Program-made: the position numbers and the translations under genes
Shown: positions 4,105 through 36,416 of the stretch, piece after piece
Numbering within the stretch: position 1 is the stretch's first letter
Layout: each line of letters begins with the position of its first letter
From: a virus
DNA: 42,019 nucleotides
Reading direction: 5' to 3' (one strand)
Virus record (IMG/VR): IMGVR_UViG_3300025133_008711
Location: 1 to 42,019 of that record
The notes under the pieces: model-generated
Database searches by the model: none
What the model saw: only the letters and a program-made list of their open reading frames with translations
What the model was told of the DNA's origin: nothing

Positions 4105-4370
4105 TTGATCTTTCCAGTCATCGGGTTAACCAAGGCCCATCCTGGTTTACTTTCGTCAGGCATGCCATTGGTAATACCAAAGCCTTCTGCCCACTCCCAT
4201 ACGCCACTTCTTCCTTGAATTCGACTGCCAATTTCAACGCCTTCCGGTGGCCCTTCCGATGCACCGGTTATGGCACTTTTTTTACCGGTTAACGGATCCA
4301 CGCCTTCACCAAAGGCGGCTTTAATTTCTTCTTTAATGATTTTTTGTAATTGTTGTTTAGTAATATTCAT
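4101..4370 (-). CDS. MKITK-leader small protein
   Basis: 89 residues with leader MNITKQQLQKIIKEEI, then a Gly-rich body (SGVWEWAEGFGITNGMP). It is a further member of the leader family, isolated from the others by the plus-strand gene. A CTTAAC-17-TAATAT candidate promoter ends near 4410 on the minus strand, about 45 nt upstream. Function unknown. Confidence 0.75.
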   Translation of the reverse strand: MNITKQQLQKIIKEEIKAAFGEGVDPLTGKKSAITGASEGPPEGVEIGSRIQGRSGVWEWAEGFGITNGMPDESKPGWALVNPMTGKIN

Positions 4371-4442
4371 AAATTACTCACGGGTTATAATAATTAGTGA
4401 TATAATTATATTATGGCCAAAATTGATTGGGTTAAGTTATGG

Positions 4443-4524: not shown

Positions 4525-5175
4525 ATGAAAGATTATTATAAACTACTTGAAATTGACCCAAATGCCACTGCAGCAGATATTAAAAAAGCCTATAGGCGGC
4601 TAGCCCATAAGTACCATCCGGATCGAAATCCGGATGATTCTAGTTGTGAACAAAAATTTAAAGAAATTGTTGAAGCCAACGAAACACTGTCAAATGCTCA
4701 AAAACGGCAACAATATGATCATTCACTTAAAGGTGGCGGTTTTACAAATTTAGAAGATATGTTCGCGAATATGTTCGGTGCAGGCTTTAATCCCTTTAAT
4801 ACAAGGAAACGCCGCCATCGAGCAAAAAGACAAGATCCCACGCCAGATAATGCAACAATCAATATTGAATTGACATTAGGTGACTTAGAAAAAGGAGGTG
4901 CATCACATACCTTTGAATTCACCAAAAATGTAGCTTGTCAAGCTTGTAATGGGCTGGGCGGCAAATCAACAGCTGAATGCCACCCTTGCCAAGGTATAGG
5001 AATAATTATTCAAGATATCCGCCGCGGCTCAATGATATTTCAGACCAAATCTAGCTGCGCAGAATGTGATGGTACCGGCCAATATATTGTTGATCCATGT
5101 ACCAATTGTGGCGCCATAGGCGTTATAGCTGAAAATAACCTATATAGAGTTACTATAACTACTGAAAAGCTTTAA
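4525..5175 (+). CDS. dnaJ: DnaJ-like co-chaperone, C-terminally truncated
   Basis: 216 residues. Residues 1-66 are a J domain with the diagnostic HPD ([10 protein letters not shown]), which stimulates the ATPase of DnaK. A short G/F-type linker (MFGAGFNPF) follows. Residues about 134-200 hold four CxxCxGxG-like zinc motifs ([32 protein letters not shown]). Bacterial DnaJ is about 375 residues; here the two C-terminal substrate-binding/dimerisation domains are missing, and the protein ends just after the zinc domain at a clean stop with a terminator. The natural partner is the DnaK at 28827-30698. One of few plus-strand genes. Confidence 0.9.
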
Positions 5176-6459: not shown

Positions 6460-7263
6460 CTATCGAAGGCCTCGACTAACGAAGTGCCGTTGCAGCTTGG
6501 AAGTCAAATCCTTTTCAATCTGACAGACCCTCTGTTTAGTGACACCGAAAGTGCTCGCGTCGGCCTTGTCACTTCCCAAGTAATCCGCAATCACGCGGCC
6601 CGTGAAAATGGCTCGCTGTCGGTCGTTTAGGGTGTCGGCAAAGTCGGAGACTGCCACGAGAATCGCCTCGCTCGTTTGCGTGCGACACATAGCGTCGTGC
6701 TGAGAGATTGAGCCACTCGGCAGAGTGTCACCGAAAGTGGCGCCGTCAGAGTCGCCTATCGGCGCGGTCAAGCTGGCGGCGCGGGACGTGATAAGCGGAA
6801 CAATATCAGCAACATCGGCCTCGGTGATGCCCAACTCGCGCGCGATAGTGGCATTGTCAACGTCACTTCCAAACTCGCGACGGACGCGGGCGAGGCCGGC
6901 ATGGAGCTTCTTGGCGCTGCGTGTGCCGACTCGGAGAGTGCCGCAGTTTGCCTGCACGAACTCCTGAACCTTTGCGCGCATCCATTGCGCGGCGTAAGTC
7001 GTGAAACTTGCACCCTTTTCGGCGTCGAAGGTCTCGATGGCGCGGATAATGCCGGTAATGGCTTCGGCGGTCAAGTCCTCGATATCAACACCCTTTCGGA
7101 CGTGCTTCTTGGCAATCTTGACTGCCATGGGCAGATTGGACTTGATAAGCGCGTCCATGGCGCTGTTATCGTTGGACTTTTGGGCCTCGCCCACCAAATC
7201 GATTTGTGCAGAGCGGCTGAGAATGTGGGTCGTGGCGAGCAAGTTGAAAAGGGCACTGGTCAT
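6460..7263 (-). CDS. RNA polymerase sigma factor, RpoH-like sigma-70 family
   Basis: 267 residues from the ATG at 7263, with GAGGAGA upstream. Residues about 15-35 resemble region 1.2; region 2 spans about 45-115 with the core-binding and -10 reading block (ETFDAEKGASFTTYAAQWMR); a region 3 helix pair follows (TIARELGITEADVADIV); region 4 ends the protein with the helix-turn-helix STFGVTKQRVCQIEKDL. The size and lack of region 1.1 fit RpoH-type group 3 factors rather than ECF factors. It has its own phage-type promoter at 7302, so it may drive the promoters listed in this window, including its own. That pairing is inference; the host sigma-70 could also read them. Confidence 0.9.
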   Translation of the reverse strand: MTSALFNLLATTHILSRSAQIDLVGEAQKSNDNSAMDALIKSNLPMAVKIAKKHVRKGVDIEDLTAEAITGIIRAIETFDAEKGASFTTYAAQWMRAKVQEFVQANCGTLRVGTRSAKKLHAGLARVRREFGSDVDNATIARELGITEADVADIVPLITSRAASLTAPIGDSDGATFGDTLPSGSISQHDAMCRTQTSEAILVAVSDFADTLNDRQRAIFTGRVIADYLGSDKADASTFGVTKQRVCQIEKDLTSKLQRHFVSRGLR

Positions 7264-7301: not shown

Positions 7302-7330
7302 ATAATAAGAACCGTTTGAGGCTGGACAAG
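7302..7330 (-). promoter_or_regulatory. Phage-type promoter of the sigma factor gene
   Basis: CTTGTC, 17 bp ending GTTCT, TATTAT on the minus strand; 39 nt from the -10 to the sigma start codon. Confidence 0.75.
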
Positions 7331-7790
7331 GGGCTGATTGAAAATAGTTTCTAAGGTCTTGGAATCACAGGGAATGTTTTTTCATCCTTTCCCTTGTTTC
7401 TTCTAAACCCTCGAAATGATTGAGGCTTTTGCTTGGTTGCTGTCATAGGCTCGGCCTCTCGTCGCGAAACGCGAAAAGTGTACCCCTATAATATGCAAGT
7501 CCTGTGCCAACTTCGTGTGTTCAATCATTTCAAGGGGTTAGCGTCGCTGGTGTGCATTTTGCTTCCCAACTTGGTGCGTAGAACCATTCGCACCTGGGCT
7601 AACCCCTTGAAATGATTGAGGCAGGGTGCGTAAAGTGATACACACCTGCCATAACTCATTGAAAACATTAGGCATTGGACGCTGAGTCGGAACGTCCCCG
7701 GTTTCGGCCTGTGCAGTGGGCTAATCTGCGTAAAGCCCTCGATTCAAAGCACTTTTACACTCCCGTGTAAGTGGTTGATATGGTTGTCGT
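7331..7790. other. Gene-free interval with long inverted repeat
   Basis: The longest gene-poor stretch of the centre. Arms 7521-7542 and 7598-7619 are a perfect 22-bp inverted repeat around a 55-nt loop that itself contains GGTGCG...CGCACC. A third copy of part of the arm (GAAATGATTGAGGC) occurs near 7413. A further hairpin TTACAC/GTGTAA lies near 7755-7770. I see no convincing gene with a ribosome binding site. On the minus strand this lies between the gene at 7791 and the sigma promoter, so it could be a 3' UTR structure, terminator or small RNA. Confidence 0.7.
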
Positions 7791-8096
7791 TTAGAAGCTG
7801 ACCTTGCGTCCGGTCAGTTGACCGGCGAGCCGGGCCGCATCGGCGCGGGCTTGTGCGCCGTGAAACTCGACGGGCGCGCAAAGGGCGCGCTCGTTTGAGT
7901 CGAACAGGGCGACCATGAACGTGTCGTTACGCTGGGCGACTCCGACAAGCTCACCTTCCGGCGTGTAGGCGCGGAAGTGAATGTGTACGGGCATCGGTCG
8001 GGCATGCATCCGTTGGCCGAATCCGCGAGTGGTGCGCTCCACGCGCTGAGAGTTGGCTTTTCCGAGTTTCATTCGTTGCTTCTTGATTCGAGCCAT
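7791..8096 (-). CDS. Hypothetical basic protein
   Basis: 101 residues from the ATG at 8096 (GGAGAAG upstream). Residues 1-35 are very basic (MARIKKQRMKLGKANSQRVE), then a short beta-rich domain (MPVHIHFRAYTPEGELVGVA). A nucleic-acid-binding role would fit the charge, but no family is recognised. Confidence 0.65.
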   Translation of the reverse strand: MARIKKQRMKLGKANSQRVERTTRGFGQRMHARPMPVHIHFRAYTPEGELVGVAQRNDTFMVALFDSNERALCAPVEFHGAQARADAARLAGQLTGRKVSF

Positions 8097-8166: not shown

Positions 8167-8239
8167 GGCCAGGAGCGTTTTTTATCGCATTTCTTTCAAC
8201 CCCTCGGAAGTATTACATTTTGTCGCCATATACACATGT

Positions 8240-8293
8240 GCGAGCAAAAAATAATGGGCTGCTTACACACGTAGGCGCGAGCAAAAAATAATG
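8240..8293. repeat. Two copies of a 17-bp repeat
   Basis: GCGAGCAAAAAATAATG occurs at 8240-8256 and 8277-8293, directly downstream of the stop of the gene at 8298. A third exact copy is at 8896-8912 and a degenerate one at 11751-11768. Confidence 0.85.
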
Positions 8294-16019: not shown

Positions 16020-17087
16020 CTAAGAATCCTTGCCCGTGAGCATTTGAACCATTCGCGCCGAGACCTTTGTTCCGTCCGTCGCAGAAGCCTTATGCAGGCC
16101 AATCACGTTAGCGTTGTCACCCTTACCGAGTACGGTCCACAACTTCATCGCGGCCTCGGATGGCAGAATCACGAAGTAGTTTGCCAGGTTTTGAATCTGG
16201 TTATCCTGAAGTTCGCTGGCAAACGTGTCGCTAGCTTCCATCTTTTCGATGAGAGCACAGTGCTCGTTGATACCAAAGTCCTCTGTCTTGGCGACCTGTC
16301 CATCATCGAGAATCATCGGGATGGTCACTTGGCGCTCGTAGTTCTGTGCAAAGTCATTGAACGCGACGGCGGCTTCCATGCCAACGAAGGCGGCAGACAA
16401 ATGATAAACGCTAGCATCACCCTTGGTATCTGGCGTGAGAAATCCAGCACTAGCCAGACAATCATTCAGACGCTTCCAAGAGCGACGGGACGGGTAAACC
16501 TTGTTAGGCTCGTAATCCTCGGCATGCTCCAGATGTGAACGATTCTGATTGATGAAGTCCCAAACGAGACCATCGACATTATCCTTTGCCCAATCAAGCC
16601 AATCCTCGACGGTGGGCTCAACGTCAAACACGGTCCAGCGGTCAAGCTCGGCAGGGTCCATTTCTCCAACCTGATACTGCGAACCATGCTCGCCACCATT
16701 GACAGCGGCAACGATAACGGTATCGGGATGGATGGGCTTGCCAAACAACTTGCGAGAATCCGTAAGCTCGAAGAGGCCTTGGCGTACCTCGTTGACGGCT
16801 CGGTCAACCTCATCGAAGAAGAGGACCACGGGCTTGTCACAAGCCTCCTGAAACCAGTCAGGAGGACAGAAAGAAGTGACATCGCCGTCAGTCTTAGGAA
16901 GGCCAATGAGATCGCCCTCAGTCATCTGAGATGCGCGTCGTTCGACGACGGGCAGATCGAGATCTGTAGCAATCTGATATACGACCTCGGACTTGCCAAC
17001 ACCGTGGCGTCCGCGAAGCAGCACAGGCTTGCGTACCGCGATAACGTGCGGGGCAACATTTCGGAATGTCTTGAAATCAACAGCCAT
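16020..17087 (-). CDS. MoxR-type AAA+ ATPase
   Basis: 355 residues. Walker A at residues about 26-33 (GRHGVGKS), Walker B VVLFFDEVDR, sensor region VIVAAVNGG, and PAELDRWTVFDVEP as the arginine-finger/sensor block. Such ATPases remodel protein complexes with a VWA partner, here encoded next door. It has its own promoter (17129) and is separated from the VWA gene by a structured element, so the two may be made in unequal amounts. Confidence 0.85.
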   Translation of the reverse strand: MAVDFKTFRNVAPHVIAVRKPVLLRGRHGVGKSEVVYQIATDLDLPVVERRASQMTEGDLIGLPKTDGDVTSFCPPDWFQEACDKPVVLFFDEVDRAVNEVRQGLFELTDSRKLFGKPIHPDTVIVAAVNGGEHGSQYQVGEMDPAELDRWTVFDVEPTVEDWLDWAKDNVDGLVWDFINQNRSHLEHAEDYEPNKVYPSRRSWKRLNDCLASAGFLTPDTKGDASVYHLSAAFVGMEAAVAFNDFAQNYERQVTIPMILDDGQVAKTEDFGINEHCALIEKMEASDTFASELQDNQIQNLANYFVILPSEAAMKLWTVLGKGDNANVIGLHKASATDGTKVSARMVQMLTGKDS

Positions 17088-28826: not shown

Positions 28827-30698
28827 TTAAGCGTACTCGGCATCAATGATATCATCATCGCCGCTTTGGGACGGCGGGACGTCTTCCTGTTGGCTTTCTT
28901 CTTTTTGTGCCTCATACAAAATCTTGCTTGCCGCATGAACCGCCTTTTCTAAGTTGGTATACGCGGCTTCGTAAGCTTCCGCATTTGAATTTTGAACTGC
29001 ATTTCTTACTTCTTCCATGGACGCCTCAACCTGCTGTCTGGAGTCGTCATCTAATTGATCCTTATTCTTGATAACACTTTCTGCCTGAAAAATTAAAGTA
29101 TTTAGCTTGTTCGTCCACTCAACCTCGTGCCTTTTCTTTTTGTCTGCCTCTTCGTTTTCTTTTGCGTCTTGTACCATACGATCGATATCGGCATCGTTTA
29201 GCCCACTGGCATCAGCTATTGTTATATCCTGCTCTTTTCCAGTGGCTTTGTCTTTGGCAACAACACTCAAGATGCCGTCTGCGTTAATATTAAAAGTTAC
29301 TTCAACTTGAGGTACGCCCCGGGGAGCCGGGGGAATTCCGTCTAGAGTAAAATTGCCCAGAGTTCTATTATCGGAAGCCATTTGGCGCTCACCCTGTAGT
29401 ACATGAATAGTGACCGCTAGCTGATTGTCATCTGCCGTGGAAAAAATTTGTGACTTTTTTACCGGTACCGTTGTATTTCTTTCAATCAAAGCCGTGCATA
29501 TGCCGCCTAAAGTTTCAATACCCAGACTCAAAGGTGTTACGTCCAATAACAAAACATCACTTACATCGCCAGACAAAACACCTCCTTGTACAGCGGCGCC
29601 AAGAGCAACAACCTCATCTGGATTGACACTATGACTAGGCTCTTTCCCAAAGAAATCTGTTACTCTTTTGGCAACCAAGGGAATTCGTGTCGAGCCTCCG
29701 ACGAGAAGTACTTCGTCGATATCTCCAACTTTCTTTCCGGCATCTTTTAGCGCCTTCCTGCACGAAGTAAAAGTCTTTTTAACCAAGCCGTCGATCATCG
29801 TTTCAAATTTCGATCGCTCAATGCTAACGGTCAGGTGTTTTGGACCGGTCGCATCAGCGGTTAAGAAAGGAAGATTGACCTCTGTTCTAACGGTAGAGCT
29901 TAGTTCCTTCTTGGCTTTTTCTGCGGCTTCTCTGAGACGCTGCATGGCCATAGGATCACCCGAAATATTAATACCAGTGTCTTTCTTAAATTCTTTAAGC
30001 AAATGCTTAATAATCTTTTCATCAACATTATCTCCTCCCAGGCGTGTATCACCAGAAGTCGATAGTACTTCAACGATATCCTCGCCCACTTCTAAAATAG
30101 ACACATCAAAGGTGCCGCCGCCAAAATCATATACAGCAATAACCTGATCGGACTTGCTTCCAAGACCATAAGCCAAAGCTGCAGCAGTCGGCTCGTTGAT
30201 AATGCGCTTAACTTTCAGACCAGCAATCTTTCCAGCATCGCGCGTCGCTTGCCGTTGGCTATCATTAAAATAAGCCGGCACAGTAATAACTGCTTCTGTT
30301 ACTTCGCCTCCAAGATACTTTTCAGCTGATCTCTTCAGCTTCTGCAACACTTTCGCACTCAATTCTGGCGGGCTATATTCTTTTCCAGAAACCATAATTG
30401 AAGCCTGTCCAGAAGCGGCACGTGCCACTTCAAAGGGCATATTTTCTGCCGATTCCTTTACTTCGTCATAGCTCGAACCTATAAAACGCTTAACTGAATA
30501 AATAGTTTCCTTGGGTTTTACAACTGCTTGGCGGCGCGCGGTGGCACCCACCAAAACTTCTTCGTCGTTTCCAAAACCAATCACTGAAGGAGTTGTTCTA
30601 CTGCCTTCCTCATTTACAAGAACCTTGGGTTCTCTACCTTCCATAACGGCTACACACGAATTCGTGGTACCTAAATCAATTCCAATAATTTTTGACAT
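28827..30698 (-). CDS. dnaK: DnaK (Hsp70) chaperone, full length
   Basis: 623 residues, AGGAG before the ATG. Nucleotide-binding domain with [44 protein letters not shown] and [13 protein letters not shown]; linker [15 protein letters not shown]; substrate-binding domain and helical lid; C-terminus [10 protein letters not shown] as in bacterial DnaK. All expected blocks are present, so it should be an active ATP-dependent foldase. A J-protein is encoded at 4525-5175; no GrpE is visible. A complete DnaK is rare in phages. Confidence 0.97.
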
Positions 30699-34832: not shown

Positions 34833-36416
34833 CTAAACTTCAATAATGGCATAGTTTGTGGTAATCAACGTTGAAGCAGCCGATGCTGCATTCTGTAACG
34901 CAACGCGGGTGACCTTTGCGGGATCAACAATGCCTTCTTCTAGCATATTGATTATTTCGCCGCTATTAAAATCATAACCGTATCCGTCAGATTCGTCTTC
35001 CACCAGGCTTACAATTATATCTGGCGATTTACCAGCGTTTTTAGCCATCTGTCTTAGGGGGGTAGACAACGCCTGCTTAATTATTTCCACTCCCAGCATT
35101 TGATCTTGGCTGTCCAAGTCAATATCAATATTTTTTGCAGCACGAACTAATGTTGCGCCACCTCCAGGAATTATTCCTTCTTCTTGGGCTGATTTTACAG
35201 CTTCTAGGGCATCTTCAATGCGATGTTTCTTCTCAATCATCTCAATTTCAGTAGGTGCTCCTACTTTAATTATAGCAACGCCACTGGCTAGTCTAGTAAT
35301 TCTTTCTTGAAGGCCCTCGCACACACGAATATCATCTTCTTCCATTATTTGTTCTTTGACAATATCTATTCTCTTTTCTATATCTGCATAGCGTCCTTTA
35401 CCATCAACTATTGTTGTTAGGTTTCGCATAATCTCAATAGTCTTACAGTTACCAAAATCTTCTAACTTCACACTTTTTAATGTCCTATCCGAATCTCTAG
35501 AAATAAACGTGGCACCAGTAGCAACACACAAATCTTCTAAAATGCTTTTTCTTTCTTCTCCATAGCGCGGGGCTTTAACTGCGACGACCTTCATCGTGCC
35601 CCGGGCTGCGTTCATTATCATAGCAGCTAATGCTTGTCCTTCAACTTCTTCTGCTATGATTACTAACGGTCTGGAATCTCTGGACGCTAACTCCAAAACG
35701 GGATAAACATCCTCAACCGTCTCTATTCTGTAATTCGTTATTAATATCAAAGGATTATTATAGCGACACACATTTCTTCTTTGATCGGTAACAAAAGCTT
35801 TAGCAAAATAACCCGAATCGAATCTAAAACCCTCCACAACTTCCAAGGTTGTTTCCATAGATTTTGCCTCCTCAATTGTAATCGAACCATCTCTGCCTGC
35901 CTGATCAATTGCGGCCGTAATTAAACTAGCAACTGCTTCGTCTCCATTCGCAGAAATTTTTGCAATATTTTTGATATCACCCTGGCTATTGACCGGAGAA
36001 GACATCTCATAAATATACTCTACCACAAATTTCACAGCCTTGTCAATTCCCTTCTTTAATTCAACCGGGCTGGAGCCTGCAGCTAAATACTTCTGCGAAT
36101 GCTCTAAAATTGCCCGAGCTAAAACAGTAGATGTGGTTGTACCATCGCCGGCCAATGCATTTGTTTGCGATGCAACTTGCTTAATTATCTGTGCGCCGAC
36201 ATTTTCAAACGGATCGTCGAAACTAATGAAATCCGCAACTGTAACGCCATCTTTTGTAATGATTGGATTGGCGCCCTTTTTATGTAAAATAACATTGCGG
36301 CCGCGGGGACCGAGCGTAGAGGCTACGTTGTCAGCCAGCCTGTTGATCCCATTTAAAACTTGGGTCTGTAACTGGTTCCCGTTCTGATATCTCTTTGATA
36401 TCGTTTGCTGTGTCAT
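34833..36416 (-). CDS. groEL: GroEL (Hsp60) chaperonin, full length
   Basis: 527 residues. N-terminal TLGPRGRNVILHKKG and ITKDGVTVA (nucleotide pocket), GDGTTTSTVLA, apical-domain segment GYFAKAFVTDQRRN, PRYGEERKSILEDL hinge, and AQEEGIIPGGGATLVRAA with the preceding ATPase Asp (RIEDAL). The Gly-Met-rich tail is absent; the chain ends TTNYAIIEV. No GroES-like gene is seen here, so it may use the host co-chaperonin or work without one. Its first 86 nt overlap the membrane-protein gene upstream. GroEL homologues occur in a few large phages, for instance EL and OBP. Confidence 0.96.
   Translation of the reverse strand: MTQQTISKRYQNGNQLQTQVLNGINRLADNVASTLGPRGRNVILHKKGANPIITKDGVTVADFISFDDPFENVGAQIIKQVASQTNALAGDGTTTSTVLARAILEHSQKYLAAGSSPVELKKGIDKAVKFVVEYIYEMSSPVNSQGDIKNIAKISANGDEAVASLITAAIDQAGRDGSITIEEAKSMETTLEVVEGFRFDSGYFAKAFVTDQRRNVCRYNNPLILITNYRIETVEDVYPVLELASRDSRPLVIIAEEVEGQALAAMIMNAARGTMKVVAVKAPRYGEERKSILEDLCVATGATFISRDSDRTLKSVKLEDFGNCKTIEIMRNLTTIVDGKGRYADIEKRIDIVKEQIMEEDDIRVCEGLQERITRLASGVAIIKVGAPTEIEMIEKKHRIEDALEAVKSAQEEGIIPGGGATLVRAAKNIDIDLDSQDQMLGVEIIKQALSTPLRQMAKNAGKSPDIIVSLVEDESDGYGYDFNSGEIINMLEEGIVDPAKVTRVALQNAASAASTLITTNYAIIEV

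Follow-up and report, generated by a model that had tools for sequence, protein, structure and literature searches.

The locus raises the question of what a long perfect inverted repeat is doing in the non-coding DNA in front of a phage sigma factor gene. A repeat search of the 42-kb virus record (all 42,019 nucleotides, here called the window) returned two 22-nt arms, at 7521-7542 and 7598-7619, which are 100% complementary and lie 55 nt apart. When the 250-bp region was dinucleotide-shuffled 100 times, with loops of up to 150 allowed, no perfect inverted repeat was longer than 10, placing the observed 22 beyond chance; the repeat claimed in a preliminary description of this DNA is thus real, with exact arms of a length never reached in shuffles. 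Also present as claimed were a GGTGCG/CGCACC stem in the loop and a third part-copy near 7413, which corresponds to TCAATCATTTCGAGGGTTTAG (7403-7423, minus strand), 21 nt that are 90% complementary to the first arm and lie downstream of the sigma-54 start predicted below. The gap that holds the repeat is gene-free, as had been stated, but measures 527 bp instead of 460 bp, extending from the end of a minus-strand 101-aa gene with no assigned function (7791-8096) to the ATG at 7263 of the sigma gene. The latter (6460-7263, minus strand) encodes a 267-aa phage sigma-70-family factor, whose nearest curated models are RpoH/sigma-32, below their cut-offs.

At a distance of 11 bp from a repeat arm, and reading towards the sigma gene, lies a sigma-54-type -24/-12 promoter, TGGCACAGGACTTGCA (7494-7509, minus strand), which the preliminary description did not mention. 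Nowhere else in the window is TGGCACN5TTGCA matched perfectly, and the predicted +1 of the element would fall near 7483. With one mismatch allowed, the window contains three matches against 0.74 expected, a number reached by 4 of 100 shuffles. The element precedes the same sigma gene in ten of ten phage loci (the window and nine relatives), agreeing with the pattern at 10 of 11 positions in L046 and L051 and at all 11 in the other eight, with the GG of -24 and the GC of -12 ten bases apart in every case. Six of the nine viral relatives (L004, L005, L046, L048, L050 and L051) were found by protein alone; the protein-based scan returned nine contigs, four of them previously unseen (L046, L048, L050 and L051). 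In the phage records G000 to G004 and G006, 598 kb in total, the perfect pattern occurs exactly once per record and always before the sigma gene, although the promoter pattern had served to find G003, G004 and G006, which are informative only for its uniqueness and place. The nearest relative, L004, has a sigma protein 86% identical to that of the window and keeps the element, as does L005 (71%), even though the surrounding non-coding DNA of L005 hardly aligns; the start codon of L005 comes 49 bases beyond the element. Counted against a sigma-54 reading is that all ten phage sites end in GCA (-12 of TTGCA or similar), compared with TTGCT in the consensus as quoted in the excerpted text of PMC12316311. 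An extended promoter pattern matched seven viral contigs, comprising two known relatives, three with a sigma gene of the same family and two (L014 and L016) in which the pattern is present but a sigma gene behind it is absent. The 40-kb contig of L014 has two perfect sigma-54-type matches within 1.5 kb (213-228 and 1679-1694), and no sigma gene was seen behind the second.

The inner stem GGTGCG/CGCACC was found to be part of a 20-bp dyad, GTGCGWAN6TWCGCAC, of which the window has two copies, both on the minus strand. The proximal dyad, GTGCGAATGGTTCTACGCAC (7574-7593), contains the inner stem, matches all 12 of the fixed positions scored and is centred 74 bp upstream of the -24 element, and the distal dyad, GTGTGTATCACTTTACGCAC (7626-7645), matches 11 of 12 and is centred 126 bp upstream. 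At a threshold of 10/12 or better, no more than 250 bp upstream of the promoter, the dyad is present in eight of the ten phage loci, whereas 200 shuffles of each locus predict 0.000-0.025 per locus. Its offsets recur, at 74 and 125-126 in the window, L004 and L050 and at 106, 126 and 167 in L012 and L015. Some of the copies in L012 and L015 have one good half only, which is easier to reconcile with a protein site than with a stem. In L005 and L048, where the promoter is retained, no dyad of this consensus was detected in the 250 bp upstream of it. A strict pattern of dyad plus promoter, run over 2.9 million viral contigs (a collection that may omit records near the window), returned three contigs, those of L012, L015 and L050, and in each the match precedes this sigma gene. 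Small deviations, spacing or a contig end explain why the contigs of L004, L013, L046 and L051 were missed, and the absence of the dyad explains it for those of L005 and L048. The preliminary description had also passed over a tandem repeat (7573-7617 and 7625-7669, 71% alike and 52 bp apart), which corresponds to two units on the minus strand (7573-7669), each made up of an IHF-like site and a dyad.

IHF aids looping at sigma-54 promoters according to the available part of PMC7175178, and its consensus, WATCAANNNNTTR, is quoted in the excerpt of PMC10380432. Each repeat arm contains a 13-base stretch that fits this consensus at 8 of 9 fixed positions (minus strand). The promoter-proximal site, TAACCCCTTGAAA (7528-7540, reverse orientation), lies in the arm 7521-7542 and is assigned to IHF from the consensus only; the second, TTTCAAGGGGTTA (7600-7612), lies between the dyads in the arm 7598-7619. 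A further consensus match at 8/9, TTTCAATGAGTTA (7652-7664, minus strand), is located upstream of the distal dyad. Over the 250 bp upstream of the promoter in the ten loci, 14 IHF-like sites were observed versus 2.49 expected from shuffles, five of the 14 coming from the window and L004, where they are near-identical. A proximal site is found at an offset of 24.5 bp in four of the ten loci (the window, L004, L048 and L050, the latter two matching at 9/9) and in two others (L012 and L015) at 45.5 bp, with none there in L005, L013, L046 and L051; the sole sites of L005 and L046 are far upstream (182.5 and 187.5), and L013 and L051 have no site at 8/9 within the 250 bp. The inverted repeat is best regarded as a pair of identical candidate bend sites that face in opposite directions on either side of the proximal enhancer, the bender probably being IHF or another DNABII protein. 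A DNABII model (IHF-alpha, himA) found matches in 12 of 13 genomes of the putative host group described below, two of them over the curated cut-off; since this model also matches HU proteins, the matches are no proof of IHF. It likewise matches in B. subtilis, which we take to have HU only. Taken together with the promoter and the dyads, the repeat in our judgment very probably belongs to a control region that places the phage sigma gene under sigma-54, with an enhancer and bend sites and served by a host activator.

A different assignment of the arms has a smaller but appreciable probability. Here the control region is real, and the arms would be sites of another phage or host regulator, related to a TTCCGAGGNCTTATAA motif that occurs before other phage promoters; we consider this unlikely, though it is the strongest of the alternatives. 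The third part-copy (7403-7423) and a copy at 2848 in L004 share AATCATTYCRAGGNNTTAG with the arms, the proximal site of L048 reads CAAGG on the opposite strand, and looser copies at 7349, at 8194 and in L004 and L005 are positioned 17-18 or 27-28 bp upstream of a sigma-70-type -35 in seven counted cases. Other copies, however (for example at 7401 and 8995), deviate from this spacing, and the offset-24.5 sites of L048 and L050 agree with the IHF consensus throughout, that of L050 without a CRAGG core. The DNABII matches in the host-group genomes also speak for a bender, with the reservations about the cut-off and HU given above. A near-palindrome like TTCCRAGRNCTTATAA was observed in seven copies, at 7349-7364 and 8194-8209 of the window (minus strand), at 1370, 1954 and 2900 of L004 and at 1704 and 2126 of L005; by comparison with activator sites, its spacings of 17-18 and 27-28 bp, which differ by about one helical turn, would suit an activator site. 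The exact string ATTTTTTGCTCGC occurs at 8240, 8277 and 8896 of the window (minus strand), at 787, 1385, 1789 and 1826 of L004 and at 1595 and 2053 of L005, and in L004 it twice directly follows a TTCCGAGG-like motif. Within the third part-copy there is a small terminator-like hairpin, CCTCGAAATGATTGAGG then CTTTTGCTTG (7409-7425, plus strand).

The structured hairpin that headed the preliminary description is not what the family conserves. A long stem is present in only two of the ten loci, the window and L004 (arms of 22 and 21 bp), and the contig of L004 was the sole match in a scan with the repeat arm; the longest perfect repeats in the other eight loci are 6-10 bp, the level of shuffles. 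The family instead preserves DNA sequence, placed at recurring distances from the sigma-54-type promoter. Covariation, which had been proposed as a check in relatives, cannot be shown because the arms are identical in the two loci with the stem. A structured non-coding RNA, or a long hairpin in a read-through transcript from the upstream gene that protects an mRNA 3' end or acts as a regulatory RNA, is for these reasons very improbable. The fold is very stable on either strand (-50.9 and -53.2 kcal/mol, z -8.75 and -9.43), a stability that is due to the repeat itself. Another hairpin-like stretch, GGCAGG...CCTGCC, surrounds the distal dyad (7620-7650, minus strand) and was likewise missing from the preliminary description; by reading, its outer stem is kept by a compensating change in L004, which a pure DNA site does not need, and three L004 changes in the loop stems stay G-U pairs on the minus strand, although these changes come from two sequences, the window and L004, and carry little weight. 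Against an RNA, the predicted fold of the inner loop differs between the window and L004, no Rfam family scored over its gathering score at the repeat (two microRNA models were far below), and the half-sites of the dyad hold much the same sequence instead of covarying freely, with one half degraded in some copies as noted above. An RNA element as the main reading was rejected on folding, Rfam and the ten-locus comparison.

An intrinsic terminator, or a palindrome produced by chance or assembly, can be dismissed almost entirely, for although the repeat sits between two genes and has a long stem, no T-run directly follows it on either strand by reading (as the preliminary description had observed), shuffles stay far below its length, and a separate contig keeps 7480-7629 at 83-100% identity in 30-column windows while its upstream flank falls to 33%. 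The terminator scan accepts loops of 3-8 bases only and so cannot judge a repeat with a 55-nt loop. The broader claim was borne out: upstream of the sigma gene there is a genuine element that does not resemble an ordinary terminator, and the preliminary description had itself listed binding of a protein to the DNA among its checks.

The control region with enhancer dyads and a sigma-54-type promoter has a counterpart in bacterial chromosomes. A composite of the dyad, 51-111 bp and the sigma-54 element was scanned over 84,980 species genomes and gave 25 loci. Fourteen of these are titled Deltaproteobacteria or Myxococcota/Myxococcales, and three more (L032, L040 and L042) have other titles, yet their genomes were assigned to the phylum of L035. 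By title, the remaining eight fall outside the group, two of them in Pseudomonas and one each in Dyella, Rhodovulum, Sutterella, Bacillota, Hungateiclostridiaceae and Fibrobacteres. With a relaxed promoter, TGGCN7TTGC, 377 genomes of the phylum of L035 yielded 18 composites in 17 genomes compared with 0 for the reversed pattern; 12 of the 17 had been preselected by the larger scan, so that five are new versus 0 for the reversed control. Among 31 host loci, 13 (some of them closely related, such as L020 and L024) have the same small protein downstream, starting within 39 bases. By eye, a related TPR-like protein is found in six, a phosphatidylserine-synthase-like protein in four others and a kinase-like (diacylglycerol-kinase-like) protein in three. 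This coherence of the genes behind the host sites argues that in deltaproteobacteria/Myxococcota the composite is a true regulatory unit, belonging to an enhancer-binding protein. The chromosomal sites have the same dyad, an overlapping spacing range and the same promoter element as the phage loci and differ in the genes that follow: where clustered, they precede the small-protein, phosphatidylserine-synthase-like and kinase-like genes, whereas the phage sites precede the sigma gene. The conserved small protein has 57-77 aa (L020, L023-L025, L031, L032, L035, L037, L040, L069 and L072-L074), and only weak matches below cut-off were obtained for it in Pfam (four tested) and NCBIfam (two tested). 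Among the loci scanned for an activator gene, a GAFTGA motif was present beside the sites of L030 and L031 only. Outside the group by title, L041 has an ECF-like sigma downstream, by eye. In L022 and L026, both Pseudomonas contigs, a composite with a GTGCGCA-N6-TGCGCAC dyad stands before an Hcp-like gene, by eye, and is probably a different sigma-54 regulon.

No sigma-54 domain (PF04552) was found in the ten phage records, and a search for PF00158 in eight records, six of them from the family and several of these being fragments, gave no match over the cut-off. A sub-threshold PF00158 match in the window is a MoxR-like AAA protein (16023-17087), and sub-threshold matches are also present in G001 and G003; PF02954 and PF00216 were not found in G000-G002. 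G004 has 180.7 kb and, from its 77-base overlapping ends, looks complete. Sigma-54 is present in both host-group genomes tested, and according to PMC12316311 Myxococcus xanthus does not survive its loss. The absence of PF04552 and of PF00158 over cut-off from these phage records suggests that the activator is most likely supplied by the host, and from the shared enhancer only we infer this host to be a member of the deltaproteobacteria/Myxococcota.

The promoter element, the dyads, their positions and the bacterial counterpart are well supported by comparison, and we infer sigma-54 dependence, the identity of activator and bender, timing and host group. Host RNA polymerase with host sigma-54 would bind at 7494-7509, and a host enhancer-binding protein would occupy both dyads, the proximal one (7574-7593) at about -100 and the distal one (7626-7645) at about -152 relative to the predicted start. 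A DNA bender, probably IHF or another DNABII protein, would sit on the arms, of which the first separates enhancer and promoter and the second lies between the dyads, and the bends would bring the activator onto the polymerase, leading to transcription of the phage sigma gene. The phage sigma protein would then redirect polymerase to phage promoters.

Phage promoters are usually of the sigma-70 kind and fire without an activator, and phage sigma factors of the T4 gp55 and SPO1 types switch transcription. The sigma gene studied here resembles these in encoding a sigma-70-family factor that presumably redirects host polymerase; it differs in being apparently under host sigma-54 control, in most loci with a second promoter of the sigma-70 type. 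As a sigma-54 promoter needs an activated AAA+ protein, it is a gate on a host signal, and placed before a phage sigma factor it would make takeover depend on host physiology. Sigma-54 promoters with upstream activating sequences and IHF, such as psp, share with this locus the -24/-12 element, dyads about 100-150 bp upstream of the start and bend-site candidates between dyads and promoter, as far as the excerpts of PMC7175178 and PMC12316311 describe them. Compared with these, the present region belongs to a phage, whose own sigma-70-family gene it drives, its IHF-like sites make up a perfect inverted repeat of 22 bp on both sides of the proximal dyad, and its dyad consensus was matched to no named activator.

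We suggest tentatively, and with the odds slightly against it, that a large-phage lineage of deltaproteobacteria/Myxococcota makes its transcription switch depend on a host signal through an enhancer borrowed from a host sigma-54 regulon. If so, the phage sigma factor would be made when the host activator is on, and L005 and L048, in losing the enhancer consensus and keeping the promoter, may have been re-targeted to other host activators. The shared enhancer sequence would also help to indicate the hosts of uncultured phages, and it directs attention to a sigma-54 regulon of the deltaproteobacteria/Myxococcota. Judged by titles and the beginnings of abstracts, no report of a natural sigma-54 promoter in a phage was seen among the open-access matches listed. 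Two studies reportedly come near, PMC11720261 mentioning a sigma-54-dependent promoter in connection with an engineered phage and PMC9879122 dealing with Gifsy-1 prophage genes and the RpoN activator RtcR. In the available part of PMC11877940, RpoN concerns a flagellar receptor.

The sigma-70-type promoter of the sigma gene in the window, TTGTCC-N16-TATTAT, is at 7302-7329 (minus strand). Similar CCCCTTGTC...CTTA strings are found in L004, L048 and L050, with looser ones in L012 and L015, and none was recognised before the sigma gene of L046. In L005, L013 and L051 the sigma-54 element and the gene are separated by just 41-49 bases, which would leave the sigma-54 promoter to act alone unless transcription arrives from further upstream. 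The combination of the two promoters suggests a host-gated start that is joined by another input, in that presumed order.

No DNA match was found in isolated phages; relatives of the sigma protein occur in 59 isolated-phage records, all at <60% identity. A scan with the 101-aa upstream protein found no relatives and was insensitive, since L004 and L005 each encode one and were missed. The long genes tested in the window include those for HSP70, a chaperonin, adenylosuccinate synthetase and the sigma-70-family factor. Chaperone genes thus accompany a sigma factor nearest to RpoH models: a DnaJ-like gene (by eye) at 4525-5175 (plus strand), HSP70 at 28827-30698 and the chaperonin at 34833-36416 (both minus strand), together with the sigma gene at 6460-7263. 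A 25-base string with ATCACCGACTTTCAT-like sequence is present in 26 copies, 72% or more alike, between 8971 and 25393 (minus strand); by reading, the copies lie at the start of many small minus-strand genes and encode MKVGDLV-like N-termini. Finally, a 67-base string occurs in five copies, at 79-1049 and 4323-4389 (minus strand), of which the copy at 4323 encodes a MNITKQQLQKIIKEEI N-terminus.
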